Source: Amyelois transitella
Taxonomy: Eukaryota > Arthropoda > Insecta > Lepidoptera > Pyralidae
Length of the DNA: 64,000 bases
Reading direction: 5' to 3'
Assembly: GCF_032362555.1 (NCBI RefSeq)
Contig: NC_083532.1
Location: forward strand, 1,935,001 to 1,999,000
The translations under genes and the position numbers were made by a program. The notes under the pieces were generated by a model. It saw only the letters and a program-made list of their open reading frames with translations. It searched no databases and was not told where the DNA came from. Below are positions 5,988 through 59,478 of this stretch, piece by piece (the stretch's first letter is position 1; the number at the start of each line of letters is the position of its first letter).

Positions 5988-7456
5988 AAATATGTACGGG
6001 ACAAATTATACAGATTGAGTTAGCCTTAAAGTAAGGTCGAGACTTGTGTTACGAGATACTAACTCAACGATACTACCCAAGTAACAATTAGGCGCTAAAG
6101 TAAGATTTATAATAAGTCTATAAAAGCGCTAACTAGATTCTAAAGTGGTTTATGGGTGTAACAAATTAGTGTTAGAGCGCGCTCTAACCCTACTTTACCC
6201 CCGAATTGGGCACAATTTTTATATTACTTAAGGTTGTATAATGACGGTATACAAGAGTTATGGTAATTGGCTAAGAGGTACAATTAGTGCTATAAGAAAG
6301 TTATTATAGCGGTAACAGGATCTCTTAGCGATACAAGAGGGGTAAATAAGCGTCAACTGACTCCTTAAGCGGTACAGTAGAGATACAAAGGCGTTAATTA
6401 TATTTTCAAGCGCTAAAAGGGAGGTAAATAGGTGTTTTGTAACGGTCTGAACGCTATTCAAGATAATTAAACTAATTTTGTGATCTAATAATAAATAATT
6501 TTATTTTCAATGACTATAAGTTTACGACTAATGATTTTTATATTAAACAAAAAAAAGTGATATTGTGTGGTGAGAAAGGAAGCATATTTTTGCTGCGAAG
6601 GGAAGTACACTGTGAATATGTTACATATTTATTGGCAAATAATTCGAGCGCCCGATGTATGTTGTCTATTTACTGAAAACTTTTCCACGTATTTACAACA
6701 ATTTTTGTTTATTTTGGTTGCGACGCCATTGTCAAAAACAAGTAGTCAATATAAGAAATACAGTAGTGACCTTAAGCGCTATTACTTTACCTTTAGTCAC
6801 AAAAAAGTAACAATAGACGCTATAGGATCTGTTATAGCGAAAAATTATACTCCTATTTGACTTAAGGTAATGCAAGAGAGTTTTGTATAACTTCAAGCAT
6901 TTGGTTCTATATAAGATTAAATAAACACTATTGTAAGGCTGGTAGCGCTTATTAACGCTATTGTGCAACTTTAGGTTCTTGTAAAGAGTTTATTATCACC
7001 TGCATAGCACTTTTGGAGGTAGTAGCTAATTCTTATTCTTATTTAGATCTTAGAGTTCTAAGATTCACTTAAAGCTATAACACAAAATGCTGTGCATGTA
7101 CAACAGTGTTGAGATTTGCCATAATACATCCATAACCTTTAAGCTCGCCTAATTGTCGCACTTGTAACTCTGTATTATAAGTAGAAGTGATATACGTTAC
7201 TTGGTACGCCACTTTATCGCCAATAGTCATAAGTGTTGCTACTGTAATGCCTTTGTAGCCCACTAAGTAACAAAATAAGCTCTAATCGTCGCCTAAATGT
7301 TTGTTGGGTATATTTTATAATAAATACTTATATAGATAAACATCCAAGACCCAGGCCAATCAGAAAAAGTTCTTTTCTCATCATTCCCTGGCCGGGATTC
7401 GAACCCGGGACCTCCGGTGTCACAGACAAGCGTACTACCGCTGCGCCACAGAGGCC
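5988..7456 (-). mobile_element. SINE-B copy split by a nested TIR element
   Basis: The left piece (5988-6075) is the 3' half of SINE-B (GTACGGGACAAATTATACAG ... CTCAACGATACTA). The right piece (7309-7456) continues at the next base of the family consensus (TATTTTATAATAAATACTT) and reaches the tRNA-like head (B-box complement GGGATTCGAACCCGGG, end GCGCCACAGAGGCC). The two pieces add up to one full copy, so the sequence between is a later insertion. Confidence 0.8.
6076..7308. mobile_element. 1.23 kb non-autonomous TIR element, TA target
   Basis: Ends are CCCAAGTAACAATTAGGCG and the inverted CCCAACAAACATTTAGGCG, flanked by TA on both sides, within SINE-B. Inside are many copies of a short GCGCTAA/AGCGGTA-like motif in both orientations near each end, as in the subterminal repeats of some DNA transposons. 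The frames inside have no recognisable transposase, so it was moved in trans. Family not recognised. Confidence 0.7.
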
Positions 7457-41270: not shown

Positions 41271-41510
41271 GGCCTCTGTGGTGCAGCGGTAGTACGCTTG
41301 TCTGTAACACCGGAGGTCCCGGATTCGAATCCCGGCCAGGGCATGATGAGAAAATAACATTTTCTGATTGGCCTGGGTCTTGGATGTTTATCTATATAAG
41401 TATTTATTATAAAATATATAGTAGCGTTGAGTTAGTATCTCGTAACACAAGTCTCGAACTTACTTCGAGGCTAACTCAATCTGTGTAGTACCTTATATAT
41501 TTATTTATTT
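41271..41510 (+). mobile_element. SINE-B, full length, best-preserved copy
   Basis: GGCCTCTGTGGTGCAGCGGT head, B box GGATTCGAATCCCGG, then the family body to CTCAATCTGTGTAGTACC. Looks like an Arg- or Lys-type tRNA-derived SINE; no clover leaf is kept. Confidence 0.85.
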
Positions 41511-43063: not shown

Positions 43064-43093
43064 TGTATGTATGTATGTATGTATGTATGTATG

Positions 43094-43121
<28 letters not shown>
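43064..43121. repeat. (TATG)n microsatellite
   Basis: About 14 tandem GTAT units, probably grown from a retroelement tail. 43122-44000 is otherwise non-coding with repeat-like debris (CTGATCAACTTGAAACTTTG). Confidence 0.9.
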
Positions 43122-43124
<3 letters not shown>

Positions 43125-45082: not shown

Positions 45083-46029
45083 AATTAAATTCAAACTCAG
45101 TTACTATTTCTTAATCGTAATAAATTATTTTTTACAGACAATTTTTTTTACTGTTTTATTATTTGTATTATGTGGCCTATCTGTATGTTTGTATCGTGTC
45201 GAAAATTTTGAAGTCAAATTGATGACACTCTTAATAAAGTCATCAATCCATCAATATTCACTTACAGCGAACTCACACACAGGCACACTTATAAAACATC
45301 TCTTTTTTGCACCGGGGGTTAACTATCAATGCGCTTTTATTCGAGTATTTTCGCCGACATGTGGTCTTGACCACTTTCAACTCCCACAACGTTTGAACGA
45401 CTTAACCGATTTTGATCAAACATATCTAAGAATACTCGCACGTAAGTCACCTGTAATAAAATAAATAAATTTAAAACGCTTCATTTGATGGGTGGGTTGG
45501 GTTAACAATGTCTTTCCCTCATTTTCCGTCCAGGGTAAGAACATTTTAAATTTCAATTTGGTACTACTGCCATCTATTGCCGAATAGCAATAGACGAAGA
45601 ATTATTAAGAGTAATCCTTTTTGTCAAGAGATGGCAGTTTGTTTCTTTTTAAAATAGTAAATTATTCAATAGATGACAGCAGTAAAAATAAGGATAGATT
45701 TAATTTCCTTTATAAAAAATTTAAGAAAATATTGCCATATATGTTACAAGGTAAATAAATTTATTTCCCAATCAATCACCAATTGATATTCATATTTCTT
45801 TTATTTTGGATTTTTTTATCCATTTTGACGGGAAAATAACAGAAAAAGTGCGAGTAAGTTGTCACTGTTATGTCACGGTTTCATTTGACATTCATCATAA
45901 TCACGCGATTTGTTTTGATTTCAAAATTATTTATCACGAAAACTAATTACAAATTAGTATGTAATTGATTTGTTTGTGTTGTGGTTAATTAAAATGTAAA
46001 ATCATAAAGGCCACTACTAGATAAAAAAA
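45083..46029. other. non-coding upstream of glucose-6-phosphatase
   Basis: 45290-45480 resembles transposon debris. 45560-45680 has small inverted repeats around CCATCTATTG. 45800-46029 is unique and probably includes the promoter and 5' UTR. Confidence 0.4.
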
Positions 46030-49000
46030 ATGGAACAACTGTACGCGCTGGGTGTATCTTGTATAGAATTTATTCAAAACTGGTAATTGAATAAAAGTAC
46101 TTATTGATTTTTATATAAACTGCAATAGCGCAAATAAATGTTATTCTGTTCTGCAGCACTTCTGCAATCATTCTTGTTTTAGCTCTCTCTAACAGCGCAC
46201 TCTTGACTTCCTACCTACCCTTGGTTCTGTGTTTTGTTCTGTACTCAACCCCTTTTCTGGGGAAATGAACCTGAATTCCCCTCTTTTGGGTTGGATACTT
46301 TCGCACACTTATTAATGGTCCTGTTAATGGTTTCTTTTCAGCTTTTTTATTTTATTTTAATGAGTCAAGTTATAATAAATAATAATTATGTACTTCCAGG
46401 TTTTCAGAATACGATGGCTATTTCGAAACAATCAATAACCTGTCCAACCCACAGTACGCTCACGAGATATTGTTTCCGCTCATGTCTATCGTAGACTCTG
46501 TGTTTGCTGCTCAACTATTACTGTGCATATCGTTTGGGAGTTGGCTGAATGCTGTCATGAAATGGTTAGTTTATTTATTTATATTGAATCTCAATCGTGG
46601 ACCTGAATGTGGCCTATCAGTCTTTACAAGACTGTAGGCTCTGTCTACCCTGCAAGGGATAAAGACATGATTATATGTATGTATGTATTTATTTATATCT
46701 TATCATCAGTTTCTGCCAAGGAATTACCAAAAGTATTACCATAACTGATATTTTGATTGTGGAAATGGCAACTCAAAGTGGCGCTTATGTATCTTGTTCC
46801 AAAAACAAAGCAGATTTTATATGTAAGATTTTAAATGGGATCTCGAACTGAGTAAGTTCGTTTAAACTCCAGTCAGGCCTTCACAACCTTTGCAGGAGGA
46901 CATAATCCATATTGAGTCAAGATTGCTCATCCAGTTTTCCGAATGTGCTGGTTTCGTCACAATATTTCTCCCGTCATACTCTTGTCATTTGTAATTCAAT
47001 TTGTTTTGTATCCTTTATACATGCAGGTGGCTCCTAGAAGACCGCCCTTACTGGTGGGTCCGCACCACAAACTTCTACACGGAAGCCCAACGGCCCCGAC
47101 TAATGCAGACACACCAGACCTGCGAGACGGGTCCCGGCTCCCCCTCGGGACATTCGGCCACCATCGCCACGTTGATGCTGCTCGTTATAATGTGGCTGCA
47201 ACACGTCATGAATGACAGGTAATGGAACCAGAGGTGCTGTGTGGCTCCCGCACCAAAAAAATAGAATAAGACCATCTCATTCCCATGGATGTCGTAAAAG
47301 GCATCTAAGGCAAAGGCTTATAAACTTGGGATTCTTCTTTTAGGCGATGGTTTCTGTCCGTTATTATATGTAAGTATGTTTGTTTTTACTGTTAACCTTA
47401 AAAAAAATATACATACATACATATAGTCACTTCTATATCCCTTGCGGGGTAGACAGAGCCAACAGTCCTGAAGAGACTGACAGGCCACGTTCAGCTGTTT
47501 GGCTTTATGATAGAATTGAGATTCAAATAGTGACAGGTTGCTAGCCCATCGCCTAAAATAAGAATCCCAAGTTTAAAAGCTTATAAAAAAATATGTTTGA
47601 ATGAAATCTCATGTTTTCATTAGTTATAATTAGATTTAAGTTATGTGACGTCAATAAGTGATACCTTGTATCCAATTTTGAAAATAAATCTATTCTATTC
47701 TATTCTATTCTTTCAAATAACAAATTGATGTTTTTCAGAAAATACTACGTGTCGTGGTGGAGGTATGTAGTGTACCCGCTGACCGGCGCCGCCATTTTGT
47801 CTGTTATGTTTGCCAGAATGTTCGTCGCCACGCATTTCCCCCACCAAGTGGTTTTGGGTGCATTCATAGGTCGGTGATAGCTTTAATGAATTAATCTATA
47901 CTAATATTATAAAGCTGAAGAGTTTGTTTGCTTGTTTGTTTGAACGCGCTAATCTCAGGAACTTCTGGTTCGAATTGAAAAATTATTTTAGTGTTGAGTA
48001 GACCATTTATCGAGGAAGGATTTAGGCTATATAACATCACGCTGCAAATAATGGAGAATGTGAAAAAAATCAATGAAGGCCAAAATAACTATTCCACGCG
48101 GACGAAGTCGCGGGAACAGCTAGTATTAAATACCCGTTTATTTTAATGCCGTGTGGTTTCCGGCACCAATACGAAAAAGAATAGGACCACTCCATCTCTT
48201 TCCCATGGATGTCGTAAAAGGCGACTAGCGGATAGGCTTACAAACTTGAGATTCTTTTTTTTTAGGCAATAGGCTAGCAACTTGTCACTATTCGAATCTC
48301 AATTCTATCTTAAAGCCAAAAAGCTGAATGTGGCCTATCAGTCCGCTCAGGACTGTTGGTTCTGTCTACCCCGCAAGGGATATAGACGTGATTATATGTA
48401 TGTATGTATTTAATTACAGGCTCCTTCCTCGCCCCAGCACTGTGCATCTACGTGTCAGACCCTTACATTTGGCAGTACGGTTTCTACACAAACTACAAGG
48501 TGTCCAAAGCTATAGCCTGGCACGTGTTCAGCGCTGTAGTCATGATAGCTATAGGTGTTTTGACATATTATAGCTTGAAGTTGTGCGGATTGGACCCGAT
48601 GTGGACTGTCAAATTGGTATGTTAATTTTGTGAATACATACATACTTACATATAATCACGTCTATGTCCCTTGCGGGGTAGACAGAGCTGACAGTCTTGA
48701 AAAGGCCACGTTCAGCTATTTGGCTTTAAGATGGAATTGAGAATCAATAGTGACAGGTTGCTAGCCCATCGCCTAAAATAAGAATCCCAAGTTTATAAGC
48801 CTACCCCTCAGTCGCCTTTTACGACATCCATGGGAGAGAGCTGGAGTGGTCCTATTCTTTTCTATTAGTGCCGGGAACCACACGGCAAATTTTGTAAATG
48901 TATATTTTAATGTCACTTACCACGTTAATGCCGTGCGGTTCCCGGCATTTTAGAATAGGAACATTATATCGTATCCGTGGATGTCGTAAAAGGCGTTTGA

Positions 49001-52000
49001 GGGTAAGGTTAATAAACTTGAGATTCTTTTTTGTAGGTGATGAGCTAGCAACCTGTCAATATTTTAATCTCAAATACATAATTAAGGCATACAGCTGAAC
49101 GTGGCCTTTCAGTTTTTTCGACACTACCGATTCTGTCTACCCCGCTAGGGATACAGACGTGATTATATGTATGTAAGAATAGAATAGAATAGATTTATTT
49201 TCAAAATTGGATACAAGGTATCACTTATTGACGTCACATCACTTAAATCTAATTATAACTACTACCGCCTCCAAAGCGCATGTGTAGAAGAAGCGGCGGA
49301 ACAAACTACACTGCAGCATTTTCATCGGACGTCAATATACAAATATAGATCTCTTAAATCTAAATCATGGACGAATGCACATTGTCTACATTAAAAAACA
49401 TGAATGAATGTAGAACTAGTTATTTCAATACGAATATTTCGTCAAATAAATAAAGATAAAGATAAAATAAAATATGTACACACCGTACAAATTATGTCAA
49501 CACCATGTCAAAAATGTTGTTTTAATAATAAAATATTCGATCGATTTTCATTCAGGCGTTCCGCTGGTGCGAATATCCAGAGAACATCCACGTGAGCACC
49601 ACGCCGATGTTCGCGCTGGTCCAGTCCACCGCCAGCCTGTGCGGCTGGGCGCTGTGTGTCACCCCCGCTATAGCCAAGTGAGTTACAAATACATATACAG
49701 GGTGATAGATAGATAGATAGCCAAGTGAGTTACAAATATATATACAGGGTGATAGATAGATAGCCAAGTGAGTTACAAAAATATATACAGGGTGATAGAT
49801 AGATAGATAGCCAAGTGAGTTACAAATATATATACAGGGTGATAGATAGATAGATAGATAGCCAAGTGAGTTACAAATATATATACAGGGTGATAGATAG
49901 ATAGATAGCCAAGTGAGTTACAAATATATATACAGGGTGATAGATAGATAGATAGCCAAGTGAGTTACAAATATATAGTGTGATAGATAGATAGATAGCC
50001 AAGTGAGTTACAAATATATATACAGGGTGATAGATAGATAGATAGCCAAGTGAGTTACAAATATATATACAGGGTGATAGATAGATAGATAGCCAAGTGA
50101 GTTACAAATATATATACAGGGTGATAGATAGATAGATAGATAGCCAAGTGAGTTACAAATATATATACAGGGTGATAGATAGATAGATAGCCAAGTGAGT
50201 TACAAATATATATACAGGGTGATAGATAGATAGATAGCCAAGTGAGTTACAAATATATATACAGGGTGATAGATAGATAGATAGCCAAGTGAGTTACAAA
50301 TATATAGTGTGATAGATAGATAGATAGCCAAGTGAGTTACAAATATATATACAGGGTGATAGATAGATAGATAGCCAAGTGAGTTACAAATATATATACA
50401 GGGTGATAGATAGATAGATAGCCAAGTGAGTTACAAATATATATACAGAGTGATAGATAGATAGATAGCCAAGTGAGTTACAAATATATATACAGAGTGA
50501 TAGATAGATAGATAGCCAAGTGAGTTATAAATATATATACAGGGTGATAGATAGATAGATAGCCAAGTGAGTTACAAATATATATACAGGGTGATAGATA
50601 GATAGATAGCCAAGTGAGTTACAAATATATATACAGGGTGATAGATAGATAGATAGCCAAGTGAGTTACAAATATATATACAGGGTGATAGATAGATAGA
50701 TAGCCAAGTGAGTTACAAATATATATACAGGGTGATAGATAGATAGATAGCCAAGTGAGTTACAAATATATATACAGGGTGATAGATAGATAGATAGCCA
50801 AGTGAGTTACAAATATATATACAGGGTGATAGATAGATAGATAGCCAAGTGAGTTACAAATATATATACAGGGTGATAGATAGATAGATAGCCAAGTGAG
50901 TTACAAATATATACAGGGTGATAGATAGATAGATAGCCAAGTGAGTTACAAATATATATACAGGGTGATAGATAGATAGATAGCCAAGTGAGTTACAAAT
51001 ACATATATGATTGACTAATTAACTAATACTACGGATTTAAAAACACATAATGAACATGCCGCTATAGCCAAGTGAGTTACAAATACATATATGATTGACT
51101 AATTAAATAATACTACGGATTTAAAAACACATAATGTACATGCCGCTATAGCCAAGTGAGTTACAAATACATATATGATTGACTAACTAACTAATACTAC
51201 GGATTTAAAAACACATAATGAACATGCCGCTATAGCCAAGTGAGTTACAAATACATATATGATTGACTAACTAACTTATACTACGGATTTAAAAACACAT
51301 AATGTACATGCCGCTATAGCCAAGTGAGTTGCAAATACATATATGATTGACTAATTAACTAATACTACGGATTTAAAAACACATAATGAACATGCCGCTA
51401 TAGCCAAGCGAGTTACAAATACATATATGATTGACTAATTTACTCATACTACGGATTTAAAAAGACATAATGAACATGCCGCTATAGCCAAGTGAGTTAC
51501 AAATACATATATGATTGACTAATTAACTCATACTACGGATTTAAAAAGACATAATGAACATGCCGCTATAGCCAAGTGAGTTACAAATACATATATGATC
51601 GACTAATTAACAGTAACAGTGACACCGGAGGTCCCGGGTTCGAATCCCGGTCAAGGCATGATGAGAAAAGAACTTTTTCTGATTGTCCTGGGTCTTGGAT
51701 GTTTATCTATATAAGTATTTATTATAAAATATAGTATCGTTGAGTTAGTATCTCGTAACACAAGTTTCGAACTTACTTCGAGGCTAACTCAGTGTATAAA
51801 AAAAAACACATATCAAATAGTACAGTTGTTAAAACAGTACATTCATTTGTATTACTGCATCAGCGCCATTTATTACTAAGTAGTACAGTAAAATGTAAAA
51901 TAGGTAAAATGGTACATTCAACTGTATAACTGCATTAGCGTCGTCTATTGCTAAATAGTTCAGTCGGTAAAACAGTACATTCATTTGTATAACTGCATTA

Positions 52001-53027
52001 GCGCCATTTATTGCCAAATAATTAAGTCGGTAAAACAGTACATTCATTTGTATTACTGCATTAGCGTCATCTATTGACAAGTAGTACAGTGGGTAAAATA
52101 GTACATTCATTTGTATCATTCTACATCACTTCCGGAGGTAAAAATTGTAAAAAGCGAAATGAATGAATTTAAGCAAATATTATAAGAGTAGGACGTGAGA
52201 ATGTTAAGACGAGGGGATGTTCTGGCGTAAGACCAGGTCAAGTGTATCCCTAACCGATGAGCTTGCATGAAGAGAGTTATGAATGTGGATGGAGCGGAAG
52301 AAGTATGCAGGGATCATGGCAAGTGGAAAGATGTAGTCTCTGCCTACCCATCCGGGAAAGAGGCGTGGTTTTGTTTGTATATGCAAATACGTAATATTGT
52401 CATTCTTTGACTAATAAAGGAACACACAATAATAAGTCTGCCCTTGTGCATTGTTATTTTTATGTACTACTAAAAATTTGTTACATACATACATATGGTC
52501 ACGTCTATATCCCTTGCGGGGTAGGCAGAGCCAATAGTCTTGAAAATACTGAATGGCCACGTTCAGCTATTTGGCTTAATGATAGAATTGAGATTCAAAT
52601 AGTGACAGGTTGCTAGCCCATCGCCTAAAAAAGAATCCCAAGTTTGTAAGCCTATCCCTTCGTCGCCTTTTACGACATCCACGGGAAAGAGATGGACTGG
52701 TGGACTGTTCTTTTTTGTATTGGTGCCGGGAACCACACGGCAATAAAAATTTGTTATGTACAATAAAGTATTTACAATACTAATAAAGTATGTTTCCTTT
52801 CCAGATACCGACACTACACCAAAAATCGTTCGCTGCTTATATCTTCATTTTGTACAATCGCAATAGTTTACTTTATTAAACAGTTACAAAGCAATATTAG
52901 TAAAGAATCTGCCTTCCATTTTTATATAGCAAATTTTGTTATAACTGCGGTAACACCTGCCTTGTTTTTAAGATTGGTACCTGTCGTTGCCATGTGGCCT
53001 TTTTCAGGGAAAGAAAAAGCAGAATAG
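46030..53027 (+). CDS. G6P: glucose-6-phosphatase catalytic subunit, 7 exons
   Basis: Exons 46030-46082, 46400-46564, 47027-47218, 47739-47869, 48420-48616, 49556-49677 and 52805-53027 join in phase at GT-AG junctions to 360 codons (human G6PC1 has 357). It hydrolyses glucose 6-phosphate to glucose in the ER lumen. The PAP2-type phosphatase signature is complete: KWWLLEDRP (Lys72, Arg79), PSGHS (His115, proton donor) and ARMFVATHFPHQVVLG (Arg163, nucleophile His169), matching human Lys76, Arg83, His119, Arg170 and His176. Many hydrophobic segments fit a nine-helix ER membrane protein. The C-terminus GKEKAE fits a KxKxx ER-retrieval signal. Every intron except the first carries transposons, and intron 6 (3.1 kb) begins with an amplified copy array of its own donor site. 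Close paralogues of this family exist, so the name is to family level, but the motif set is clear. Confidence 0.93.
46588..46960. mobile_element. intron 2 repeats: Family A (+) and SINE-C (-) fragments
   Basis: 46588-46692 is the Family A 3' half (ATATGTATGTATG end). 46862-46960 is a SINE-C body piece (CTTCACAACCTTTGCAGGAG, GAATGTGCTGGTTTCG). Confidence 0.7.
47231..47713. mobile_element. intron 3 repeats: opposed Family A pieces and Tail-F
   Basis: 47231-47360 is Family A head (+), 47411-47580 Family A (-), 47640-47713 Tail-F (GTGATACCTTGTATCCAATT, tail of TTCTA repeats) ending 25 bases before exon 4. Confidence 0.75.
47895..48123 (+). mobile_element. Helitron, Lep1-like, full length (intron 4)
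   Basis: TCTATACTAATATTATAAAG to GTCGCGGGAACAGCTAG, inserted between A and T, 25 bases after exon 4. Confidence 0.9.
48148..48413 (+). mobile_element. Family A, full length, ending at the exon 5 acceptor
   Basis: ATGCCGTGTGGTTTCCGGCA to ATATGTATGTATGTATT. The tail stops about 6 bases before the AG of the exon 5 acceptor (TTTAATTACAG). Confidence 0.85.
48634..48888 (-). mobile_element. Family A, full length (intron 5, inverted partner 1)
   Basis: From ATACATACTTACATATAATC to GGGAACCACACGGCA. Confidence 0.85.
48926..49178 (+). mobile_element. Family A, divergent subfamily (intron 5, inverted partner 2)
   Basis: ATGCCGTGCGGTTCCCGGCA to GATTATATGTATGTA; opposed to 48634-48888. Confidence 0.85.
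49180..49330 (-). mobile_element. Tail-F LINE 3' end
   Basis: GAATAGAATAGAATAGATTT tail then TACAAGGTATCACTTATTGA and GCGCATGTGTAGAAGAAGCG. Confidence 0.75.
49670..50991 (+). repeat. minisatellite 1: ~47 bp units carrying the exon 6 splice donor
   Basis: Starts at the last bases of exon 6. Each unit is ATAGCCAAGTGAGTTACAAA, TATATATACAGGGTG, then 2-5 GATA repeats. I count 29 junction copies from 49673 to 50982 including the true one. Variation: number of GATA units, TATATAGTG in place of TATATATACAGGGTG in two units, AGAGTG in two, one GAGTTATAA. All 29 keep CAAGTGAGTT. Confidence 0.97.
50992..51600 (+). repeat. minisatellite 2: ~84 bp units carrying exon end plus donor
   Basis: Unit: GCCGCTATAGCCAAGTGAGT TACAAATACATATATGATTG, then ACTAATTAACTAATACTACG and GATTTAAAAACACATAATGA. 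Seven further junction copies (near 51065, 51150, 51233, 51317, 51401, 51485, 51569). They include more exon sequence than minisatellite 1 (CCGCTATAGCCAA). One copy (about 51401) reads CCAAGCGAGT and has lost the GT. Confidence 0.95.
51614..51795 (+). mobile_element. SINE-B, 5' truncated (intron 6)
   Basis: CAGTGACACCGGAGGTCCCG through GGCTAACTCAGTGTA; follows the end of minisatellite 2 directly. Confidence 0.85.
51831..52125. repeat. minisatellite 3: 64 bp units
   Basis: Four units and a partial fifth of AAAACAGTACATTCATTTGT, ATTACTGCATTAGCGCCATT, TATTGCCAAATAGTTCAGTC. Starts near 51831, 51903, 51967, 52031 and 52095. The first unit is longer. Unrelated to minisatellites 1 and 2. Confidence 0.9.
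52215..52376 (+). mobile_element. Family D copy
   Basis: Reads GAGTTATGAATGTGGATGGA and GATCATGGCAAGTGGAAAGA; translates to MNVDGAEEVCRDHGKWKDVV, LINE-protein-like. Confidence 0.6.
52483..52742 (-). mobile_element. Family A, full length (intron 6)
   Basis: ACATACATACATATGGTCAC to CCGGGAACCACACGGCAA; lies 60 bases before exon 7. Confidence 0.85.
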
Positions 53028-54679
53028 GAAATCTTTCGAGCTTTAGTCAATTTTTGTCAAATAATTTTAATCAAATTGTTATAACTTACTACTTACTTAC
53101 TATCAGTCTTTTCAAGACTGTTGGTTCTGTCTACAACGCAAGGGATAAAGACGGGATTATATGTATGTTTTATTCCTGTAATAAAAAAAGTTCTTAAACT
53201 TAATATAAATCTTATTAATATGGTCATTGCTTAACTTTTAGTTTGATTTTGGCTAAATTTATTGAAAATTTTTGCAACAATTGCTTAGGGGCCTTAAAAT
53301 ATTGTAAGTTTAAACTTTTATTAAATTTGTTTTAGTTTTTTGTATCCTGACGATTGAAAATATCCGGATTGCATATTTTATAGAAATAAAAACATAATCA
53401 TATTATGAAGAAATCATTGCATAAGTTTCGACAAAAGCATTTGATTGAACCTTACCATGACATTGAATACGGCTTATTTATTATTTGTTATTGTTAATAT
53501 ACATAAGTTAGTAAAATTATTATTTATAACCTTTAAATTCTTTTTATTTCTAAACTTTAGAAATGAGAGGAAATTTGTTAAATTTTGTTTTCGGGCACCA
53601 CAAGGACCGATATTGGATCCTTTGTAAAATGTTAATTAAATAAAGCTAGTTTATTTGGCGTCTTATTATACCACGAATTATATTATATTATTAATAAAAG
53701 ATATAACGACGAGTGTGATTAATATTTCTGATGGCAAAGTGTTATCAAATTATTCTGAATGTGTGATTAATTTTAAATGATGGATGAAAAAGGTTTCAAT
53801 TTTTTTTTTTTTGCTTTTTTCTCTCGAATAAGGGAGATATCATTTCGTTGGATTTTTTTTTTAATTTATATTAATACATTGTTTTATTTATAACCTTATT
53901 TTATTTATTATGTAAATAATATTTCTTCACATATCGGCTTTTATTATAATTATAATTCTGTGATAGCTTTTGTGAATCAATAATTTGTCACCGAGTTACT
54001 ATTATTTATTTTGTGATGCGCACACCAAATAATTAGATAAGTTTTAAGAGAAAATTGGGAAGAAATAAAAACAGTGAAATCAATTATAAGTAGTTTCATT
54101 TATCAAAGCCCTTGTATTGTTCAATAAAACTTTTGTTTTTCAGATAAGTAAACTTGGATCACATCAAGACGTACTTAGTAGGTACCTAGTAAAAAAGTAA
54201 ATATACATATACCACAGAAATCGTAAGATTTTTAGACACTTTAAGGTTGTGAACGTTGAGTTGTTTAAATAAATCTTTTATTTATTCATTCACTTCTGAT
54301 TGTCTCGTATAAAACCCCAGTTTTTTTTTACAATATCTTTCATGTACAGACATCCCTCAGTTACAATTTTATTACATGTATGGATTCCATTCTCAAAAGC
54401 TTATCAGTATTATCATTAAAACGTTATCATCTACTTGATATCCGCTGATCTCAACAACTTAGAGCTTATCGAATTTAATTAAGTAACTCCCACGCGTGAT
54501 AATTTTCTGTTTAATATTAGTATCGATAAAATTAATATATCTCTGCCAATAGTTAAATTCATTTTCAATCATTTCATTGCATTTGTTGGGCAAATCAGCC
54601 TTATTTTTACTAGACTATATTACGCACTCGTCTTTGGTATTAACGGTGTAGTCAACGCCTAAAGTCAAGCTCGTCAAAT
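53028..54679. other. glucose-6-phosphatase 3' region and intergenic
   Basis: A Family A tail piece lies at 53101-53170 and AATAAA at about 53386. A decayed reverse-transcriptase motif (53595-53627, APQGPILDPL) is followed by AT-rich DNA. The last 100 bases may be the promoter of the next gene. Confidence 0.45.
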
Positions 54680-57196: not shown

Positions 57197-57200
57197 CTAG
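57160..57200 (+). mobile_element. Helitron 3' terminus at the SDR stop codon
   Basis: GGCGGACGAAGTCGTGGGCA followed by CCAACTGCCTAG|T is the Lep1-like 3' end. Its last bases overlap the stop codon of the minus-strand SDR gene (57197-57199). The 5' end of this copy was not located. Confidence 0.7.
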
Positions 57201-57952
57201 TTCAACAATAAGTAACCATTGTCGCTCACATAATCTGAACCAGTTATACCTTTCGCCTTCTCACTGGCCAAAAACAAAATCAAATCTGCTATTTCTTCAG
57301 GCTCAGAAACCCTGTTATTCAACGCTGTTTTGCCTGCAACATCTTCAACCTTCGTTGTTATACCAGCGTTCTCAAGTATATCACTATAAACGGGTCCGGG
57401 ACTTACAATATTCACTCTCACCCCGTGAGGCGCTAATTCCAATGCTGAAACTCTAGAGAAATGACTCAAAGCGGCCTTTGTTGTACAGTATCCACCCATA
57501 TTTATAGTGTTAATGGTTATCCCAGCAATGCTTGATACGTTTACAATGTTACCTTTGGTTTTAATTAGAAATGGTGCGGCTAAAGTTGTCAATTTAACCA
57601 CTGCACGCAAATTTGTATTAATTAACTCGTCGAATGATTCCGTTATTTTTCCATCGAGAATCCTTCCAAATCTTGTAATGCCAGCATTGTTTATAAGCAC
57701 GTCGAGTTTGTTAAATTTTTCTATAGTATCATTAATGATTCTTTTGACGTCATCGTCTTTACACACATCAGCTTTGATGACTAATGGTTTTTTACCGACT
57801 TTGGTACAATCTTCTTCCACTTCCTTCAGTTTCACTTCGTTCCTTGCTACGATCACGACATCAGCGCCTTCTTTCGCGAAAAGAACAGCTGTGGCCGCTC
57901 CAATACCAGAGCTAGCGCCAGTTACAAGGACAACTTTATTGTTAAAACTCAT
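57197..57952 (-). CDS. classical short-chain dehydrogenase/reductase (SDR), 251 aa
   Basis: Single exon. Start chosen at ATG 57952 (MSFNNKVVLVTGASSGIG), because its paralogue starts MSFKNKVV at the same point and the 25 in-frame codons further upstream overlap a TATA-like AATATATAA (about 57999-58006). A Rossmann fold is shown by TGASSGIG at residues 11-18. Arg37 after strand 2 (VARNE) suggests NADP(H). NNAG lies at about 88-91, the catalytic Ser in NVSSIAG, and Tyr/Lys in YCTTK, then SPGPV. The C-terminal SDNGYLLL is typical of FabG-like SDRs, so the enzyme should be an active cytosolic carbonyl reductase; the substrate cannot be told from sequence. The stop codon lies in a Helitron end. Divergent partner of the SDR at 58723. 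Confidence 0.92.
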   Translation of the reverse strand: MSFNNKVVLVTGASSGIGAATAVLFAKEGADVVIVARNEVKLKEVEEDCTKVGKKPLVIKADVCKDDDVKRIINDTIEKFNKLDVLINNAGITRFGRILDGKITESFDELINTNLRAVVKLTTLAAPFLIKTKGNIVNVSSIAGITINTINMGGYCTTKAALSHFSRVSALELAPHGVRVNIVSPGPVYSDILENAGITTKVEDVAGKTALNNRVSEPEEIADLILFLASEKAKGITGSDYVSDNGYLLLN

Positions 57953-58722
57953 TTTCGCAATGACGTATGCAAAGTGAAGGCTAGGACATTGTAGGTCATT
58001 ATATATTACGGCTAACAGCCAAGTCATCTCTCAATGATAATTGCAATCATATCTGGTACACTCAGCGGCTGAATTGTTATTATGATTTAGCTGATGTTTT
58101 ATCAGTTCGTACATAACAAGTGGAAAAGATGACTATTACTTACTGTGCATTAAATATTTTATTGTCAAAAAATTACCAACTCTTGAATTTAAAGGAAATT
58201 TAAATGAGAGGAACTCAAGTAATATATATTTCAACAACCACCTGGGATATGTTCCGATTCCTGACATCCTCTTCTTCGGAGAAGCAGAGACTGCATCTTT
58301 CCAATAGTGTGACCATCCCTGCATACTTTCGCTTCATCCACATTCATAATTATCTCCACGCAAGCTCTTCGGTTAAAAGCATTCTTGACGAATATTAGAT
58401 GCACAAAAAAAAACATCAAAATCTGTACACAATCGGCAGAGATCGCGAAATATAAAAATAAACATGATCGAATTGAGAACCTATTTATTTCTCAACGTGG
58501 TTGAAAATTGCACAAATTATAAAAGTCGTTCTTAATAGTTAACAATCTCATTGCTCTCTATGTCGCTGAGTGTACTTAGATGATATGTTATTATTTGCTA
58601 CTATCATTTCATTATCACACACGATTCAGTTTTATATATATATGACTCACTTAGAACACCAAGTTTAGTCGTGATAAAATTTTCTACACATTCTGTGCGG
58701 ACCAGTTCGGACCAGTGCAGAA
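57953..58722. promoter_or_regulatory. bidirectional promoter region of the SDR pair
   Basis: 770 bp between two divergent starts. TATA-like boxes lie near each gene: AATATATAA on the minus side (about 57999) and TTTTATATATATATG on the plus side (58630-58645, about 85 bases before the ATG). A Family D copy (58260-58395, minus) sits in the middle. Confidence 0.55.
58260..58395 (-). mobile_element. Family D copy
   Basis: CATCCCTGCATACTTTCGCT, CATCCACATTCATAATTATC: complement of the LINE-like segment at 52215. Confidence 0.55.
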
Positions 58723-59478
58723 ATGAGTTTCAAAAACAAAGTTGTCATTGTTACTGGTGCTAGTTCCGGTATCGGCGCATCCACAGCTGTTCTGTTCGCG
58801 AAAGAAGGCGCCGATGTAGTCATTGTAGCTAGAAACGAAATAAAACTGAAGAAAGTAGAAGAAGACTGCGCTAAAGTCGGAAAAAAACCTTTAATCATCA
58901 AAGCTGATGTATCAAATGACGATGACGTTAAAAGAATAATTGATGATACAATTGCTAAGTACAAAAAGATTGATGTACTCGTGAATAATGCCGGCATAGC
59001 GAGAATCGGAACCATTCTCGATGGGTCCGTTCCAAAAATTTACGATTTACTTATGAATACAAACGTACGATCAGTTGTTCAGCTGACAACTTTAGCCGCT
59101 CCGCATTTGGTCAAAACTAAAGGTAACATAGTAAATGTTTCAAGCGTATCTGGCATAACGATCAATAATGCAGAAATGGGTACATATTGTACTACTAAAG
59201 CTGCTTTAAGTCATTTTTCAAGAGCAACAGCGTTGGAATTGGCATCACATGGAGTAAGAGTGAATATTGTGAGTCCTGGGCCTGTTTATACTGATATCAT
59301 TGAAAATTCTGGCCTAGACAAGTCTTTTGAAGAATTAGGAGCCAATACAGCGTTGAACAACAGAATATCTAGACCAGAAGAGATAGCAGACTTGATTTTG
59401 TACTTAGCTAGTGAAAAGGCTGTGGGTATCACTGGTTCCAACTTTGTATCAGATAATGGTATGCTTTTATTAAAGTAA
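58723..59478 (+). CDS. classical short-chain dehydrogenase/reductase (SDR), 251 aa
   Basis: Single exon, same length as its neighbour and very similar along the whole protein, so the two are a recent inverted duplication. Cofactor motif TGASSGIG at 11-18, Arg37 (NADP preference), NNAG at 88-91, Asn of MNTN near 112-114, Ser140/141 in NVSSVSG, Tyr155 and Lys159 in YCTTK, and SPGPV at 184-188: the complete Asn-Ser-Tyr-Lys tetrad. It ends SDNGMLLLK and TAA. Database relatives in moths are usually labelled 3-oxoacyl-ACP reductase FabG-like, but this label does not fix the substrate. A TATA-like box lies about 85 bases upstream. AT-rich 3' UTR to about 59740 with AATAAAAG at about 59718. Confidence 0.95.
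   Translation: MSFKNKVVIVTGASSGIGASTAVLFAKEGADVVIVARNEIKLKKVEEDCAKVGKKPLIIKADVSNDDDVKRIIDDTIAKYKKIDVLVNNAGIARIGTILDGSVPKIYDLLMNTNVRSVVQLTTLAAPHLVKTKGNIVNVSSVSGITINNAEMGTYCTTKAALSHFSRATALELASHGVRVNIVSPGPVYTDIIENSGLDKSFEELGANTALNNRISRPEEIADLILYLASEKAVGITGSNFVSDNGMLLLK

Follow-up and report, generated by a model that had tools for sequence, protein, structure and literature searches.

The 5′ splice site of the penultimate coding exon of a glucose-6-phosphatase gene stands 36 times in tandem in the window (the whole 64-kb stretch of Amyelois transitella DNA analysed here), where the junction CCAA/GTGAGTT recurs on the + strand from 49674 to 51584. The array's structure, the gene that carries it and its effect on the reading frame can be read directly from the DNA. 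We interpret the array as a minisatellite that lies across an exon/intron boundary and grew by ordinary expansion, with the first donor as the main splice site and the remaining ones mostly silent or leaky (probability about 0.72).

The host gene

Which gene carries the array? Six exons on the + strand, joined by splice-site consensus and frame, give a spliced model of 342 codons followed by a stop that ends at 53027.

46400-46564, 47027-47218, 47739-47869 and 48420-48616, + strand: four upstream exons of the spliced model, in open frame
49556-49677, + strand: exon E, the penultimate coding exon, 122 bases; acceptor TTCATTCAG/GCG, donor CCAA/GTGAGT; placed by the spliced model and the G6PC1 match
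49678-49683, + strand: donor 1 (GTGAGT); splicing from any of the other 35 would close the frame before the last exon
52805-53027, + strand: exon F, the last coding exon; acceptor TTTCCTTTCCAG/ATA, stop codon at the exon end; placed by the spliced model

The predicted product carries a PAP2 domain (PF01569, 4.5e-17) and aligns with human G6PC1 (chain 9j7v_A, E 2.2e-37) over residues 7-329 of 342, the alignment running on both sides of the exon E/F junction. A PAP2 domain together with near full-length G6PC1 similarity identifies the host as a glucose-6-phosphatase catalytic-subunit gene, as the first-pass annotation had proposed. That annotation also placed the array in intron 6, behind exon 6, a numbering that is plausible but unproven: five exons are modelled up to 49677, and at least one more, carrying the start codon, should lie upstream, because the exon at 46400 was modelled from its acceptor, and no start codon precedes the conserved part in its frame. 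The array-bearing intron measures 3127 bases, and the other four modelled introns 462, 520, 550 and 939.

A donor junction repeated 36 times

A motif scan of both strands reproduced the first-pass annotation's coordinates and its count of 36 junctions, 35 of them with GTGAGT; the exception is unit 34, which reads GCGAGT. The exact 13-mer CCAAGTGAGTTAC occurs at 33 of the 36 junctions, with units 19 (final base T) and 33 (GTTGC) differing outside GTGAGT, and 35 of the 36 donors are identical over nine bases, CAAGTGAGT. Allowing up to one mismatch, CCAAGTGAGTTAC had no match outside the array in the whole 64 kb on either strand, and 100 dinucleotide shuffles yielded 0.10 matches on average and one at most. 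Measured against the general donor consensus, the donor matches at 7 of 9 positions and ties for best among the five donors of the gene. The array crosses the exon/intron boundary, every one of the 35 later junctions consisting of exon bases followed by the donor. The claim that 8-13 exon bases lie within the repeat unit held up in a more specific form: 8 such bases precede the donor at 28 later junctions and 13 at the other 7.

The same annotation had described a single array. Its repetition of the donor stood, and Tandem Repeats Finder refined the array into two, at 49670-51007 (period 47, 28.6 copies) and 50980-51611 (period 84, 7.5 copies). Both run head to tail, with unit sizes inside the range of roughly 10-100 bp that defines a minisatellite. 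Together they span 1942 bases, the first 8 of which lie inside exon E.

49674-50983, + strand: 28 units of the 47-bp kind with a donor in each; lengths 47 bp (22 units), 43 bp (3), 51 bp (2) and 45 bp (1)
50984-51611, + strand: seven units of 84 bp and a final one cut after about 40 bases, at 51611; a donor in each (GCGAGT in unit 34)

The two kinds have about 24 initial bases in common, from CCAAG onward. Beyond this shared start, the 47-bp kind runs into TACAGGGTGATAG and a GATA run, and the 84-bp kind into TGATTGACTAATTAAC and further sequence. Divergence within each kind is small, with a mean difference of 3.9% between the 84-bp units (n = 7), which vary at 8 of 84 columns, and of 0.9% within the 47-bp kind (computed on the 22 units that are exactly 47 bp long, leaving aside the 6 of other lengths). 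The order of units hints at block duplication, in that a 51-bp unit is twice followed by the same 43-bp variant. A search of the array for an exactly repeated block with at least two variant units returned none, and higher-order repeat structure was rejected on this result.

Could the array be a product of assembly, with a wrong count or a misjoin? Among the 28 units of the 47-bp kind, as many as 17 have the same sequence, which makes an exact copy number hard to assemble. Yet point and length variants are found at scattered places among the units, the variable columns of the seven 84-bp units tell the same story, and the sequence on either side forms part of a single coherent gene; we hence regard an artefact as highly improbable, and a wrong count would in any case leave the structure in place.

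Donor choice decides the reading frame

Joining donor 1 (49678) to the acceptor before 52805 forms the codon AA/A and leaves the frame open into the last exon. The outcome differs for the later copies, owing to a single feature.

49679-49681, + strand: in-frame TGA directly behind the true exon end; it would be encountered on splicing from a later donor or on retention of the intron

We computed spliced products for donors 1, 2, 3, 6, 29, 30 and 36, and the six later ones all stop after 269 codons instead of 342, losing the last 73 residues. Since the TGA precedes each of them, all 35 later donors give the same stop. For donors 2, 3 and 4, exon length would grow from the 122 bases of donor 1 to 169, 212 and 259, and the stop would precede the junction by 43, 86 and 133 bases, respectively; donor 36 would give an exon of 2020 bases. 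Two earlier statements are thus borne out, namely that AAG TGA follows in frame past the true donor (seen in the spliced model) and that use of a later donor brings an immediate stop (from the computed models and the position of the TGA).

Acceptor-like sites within the 47-bp units

The 47-bp kind also contains an acceptor-like site that is absent from the first-pass description. TACAG, followed by GG or AG, is present in 26 of the 28 units—units 7 and 14 have no TACAG—and in 23 of these 26 cases the next donor follows after 24 bases, with stops in all three frames. From a donor to the TACAG of the following unit the distance is 70 bases at 18 of 27 donors. This spacing would be compatible with tandem, stop-bearing mini-exons, mostly of 24 bases, defined by TACAG and the next donor and included singly, severally or in back-spliced form. 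However, the site is poor in pyrimidines (44% in the single unit scored; six real acceptors of the gene have 50-69%), and exons of 24 bases are usually difficult to include. We consider such mini-exons to have very little probability.

Is the array a regulatory device?

If the donors served a purpose, one might expect them to change less than their surroundings. Among the seven 84-bp units, 1 of 13 substitutions falls in the 9-base donor, where 1.4 were expected; among the 22 units of exactly 47 bp, none of 5 does, against about 1.0 expected by our own arithmetic (the 6 units of other lengths excluded). Combined, one donor substitution stands against about 2.3 expected, a slight lean toward conservation at low power. 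At this low power, conservation of the donors does not clearly exceed that of the remaining unit, and selection on them was rejected as an explanation because a clear deficit of substitutions by position was not found, with the same limit of power.

The first-pass annotation had raised three possible roles, namely sequestration of U1 snRNP, blurred donor choice and a dependence of functional mRNA level on copy number. The counts bear on such a functional brake, wherein the extra donors would capture U1 and send a set fraction of transcripts into stop-containing forms, so that array length would tune the amount of G6Pase mRNA. The identity of 35 of 36 donors over nine bases and the stop incurred by any later donor fit this idea, as does a human precedent in which downstream units are reportedly used (PMC4526556). 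The missing clear sign of selection argues against it, and overall we deem a brake unlikely. A more elaborate version, in which about 35 near-equal decoy donors, accompanied by acceptor-like sites in most 47-bp units, would capture U1 and send a set fraction of transcripts into stop-containing forms, with allele length tuning glucose release, appears very unlikely.

RNA structure was rejected as the role of the array on three grounds: the first 271 bases fold no better than shuffled sequences (z -0.58), the two inverted repeats of at least 14 bases reported in 49500-52900 both lie outside the array, and an Rfam scan of 46000-53500 gave no hit at or above a family's gathering score.

Neighbouring repeats and genes

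Further repeats populate the same intron.

51619-51791, + strand: interspersed repeat that borders the array at its far end; it recurs in the window, for instance at 41304-41478 with 93.7% identity
51903-52116, + strand: second, unrelated tandem array of a 63-bp unit, 3.4 copies (Tandem Repeats Finder)

BLAST of one 84-bp unit against the window gave matches only inside the array, and the possibility that this unit continues past the adjoining interspersed repeat was rejected on that basis. A piece related to the 63-bp array lies at 51814-51889, and 52482-52742 is an interspersed repeat with many more copies across the window and pieces in the gene's other introns as well. ARAGORN called a tRNA-His at 7384-7454 (- strand) and a tRNA-Tyr at 41272-41343 (+ strand); because both overlap copies of the interspersed repeat found at 51619, these calls probably mark the tRNA-like heads of a SINE instead of genuine tRNA genes. 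Elsewhere in the window, 43064-43123 is a perfect TGTA microsatellite of 15 copies, and two divergent, apparently intronless short-chain dehydrogenase frames at 57200-58030 (- strand) and 58678-59475 (+ strand; PF13561, 3.1e-59 and 1.1e-58, respectively) look like paralogs.

Origin and likely effect

How might such an array have arisen? Expansion of a minisatellite is supported by the head-to-tail arrangement of units with point and length variants, by the two periods and by the 24 bases that both kinds share at their start. A tandem duplication would have copied a segment that reached from 13 or more bases inside exon E, across the donor, into the first part of the intron, and this segment may then have expanded as 84-bp units. 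The shorter 47-bp kind with its GATA run would have arisen and expanded next to the exon, either more recently or with its units made more uniform by exchange; we infer this order, 84 bp and then 47 bp, from the units as they stand today. The donors would have multiplied along with the array because they lie inside the repeat unit.

As to donor use, we infer that donor 1 is most likely the source of nearly all functional mRNA, since it is transcribed first and ends an exon of 122 bases whose frame stays open. Use of a later donor would put the stop right behind the true exon end and yield the protein without its last 73 residues. On this reading, the array would be mostly silent, or would cause a small drain on the mRNA by leakage to the nearest copies; most likely, it has little effect beyond occasional mis-splicing. 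Two points speak against the dominance of donor 1. In sequence, donor 1 has no advantage over the others, given that 35 of 36 share the same nine bases, and in some test genes with equal donors in competition, the one nearest the acceptor wins, which would favour the late copies. Exon-size limits, NMD rules, the donor consensus and equal-donor competition enter our argument as general knowledge. The second point is by analogy, as two downstream units reportedly serve as donors in human IFI6 (PMC4526556).

The locus thereby amounts to a natural competition experiment, with 36 near-identical donors behind one exon and a readout of open frame versus immediate stop. RNA from this species would reveal how the cell chooses when equal donors are spread over about 2 kb: exclusive use of donor 1 would mean that position or exon context counts for more than donor sequence, and if others are used too, the repeat could tune a metabolic gene.

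Comparison with known systems

Among known systems, the nearest parallel is a minisatellite in human IFI6/G1P3, the interferon-induced gene 6-16, which Turri, Cuin and Porter (1995) reportedly described as providing multiple splice donors. Its repeat unit is said to measure about 12 bp, as compared to 47 and 84 bp here. According to PMC4526556, two of its downstream repeat units serve as splice donors, and the 1995 work is cited there as well as in PMC2572611 and PMC2915984. The two systems are alike in that a tandem repeat within a gene supplies splice donors downstream of the real exon. They differ in that the two downstream IFI6 units are said to be used and to give isoforms, whereas here the later donors are putative and any of them would lead to an immediate stop.

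Variable internal tandem repeats have likewise been described in human genes of segmental duplications, with units averaging 30 bp in four copies (PMC2812944). Those repeats are similarly minisatellite-sized, lie in some cases at exon-intron boundaries, alter gene structure and may form novel introns; in contrast to the human paralogs compared there, the present case comprises 28 units of 47 bp and 7.5 of 84 bp. Finally, work on intron gain describes how splice signals are copied when a tandem duplication spans an intron-exon boundary (PMC4974935). The copying of splice signals by duplication over a boundary is common to both, but there the result is a new intron, and here the donor of an existing intron was multiplied. 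Because the human 6-16/IFI6 precedent is published, the novelty implied by the first-pass annotation is reduced: the array is a further example and not a new kind, its own traits being units of two sizes and a frame that meets a stop immediately past the true donor.
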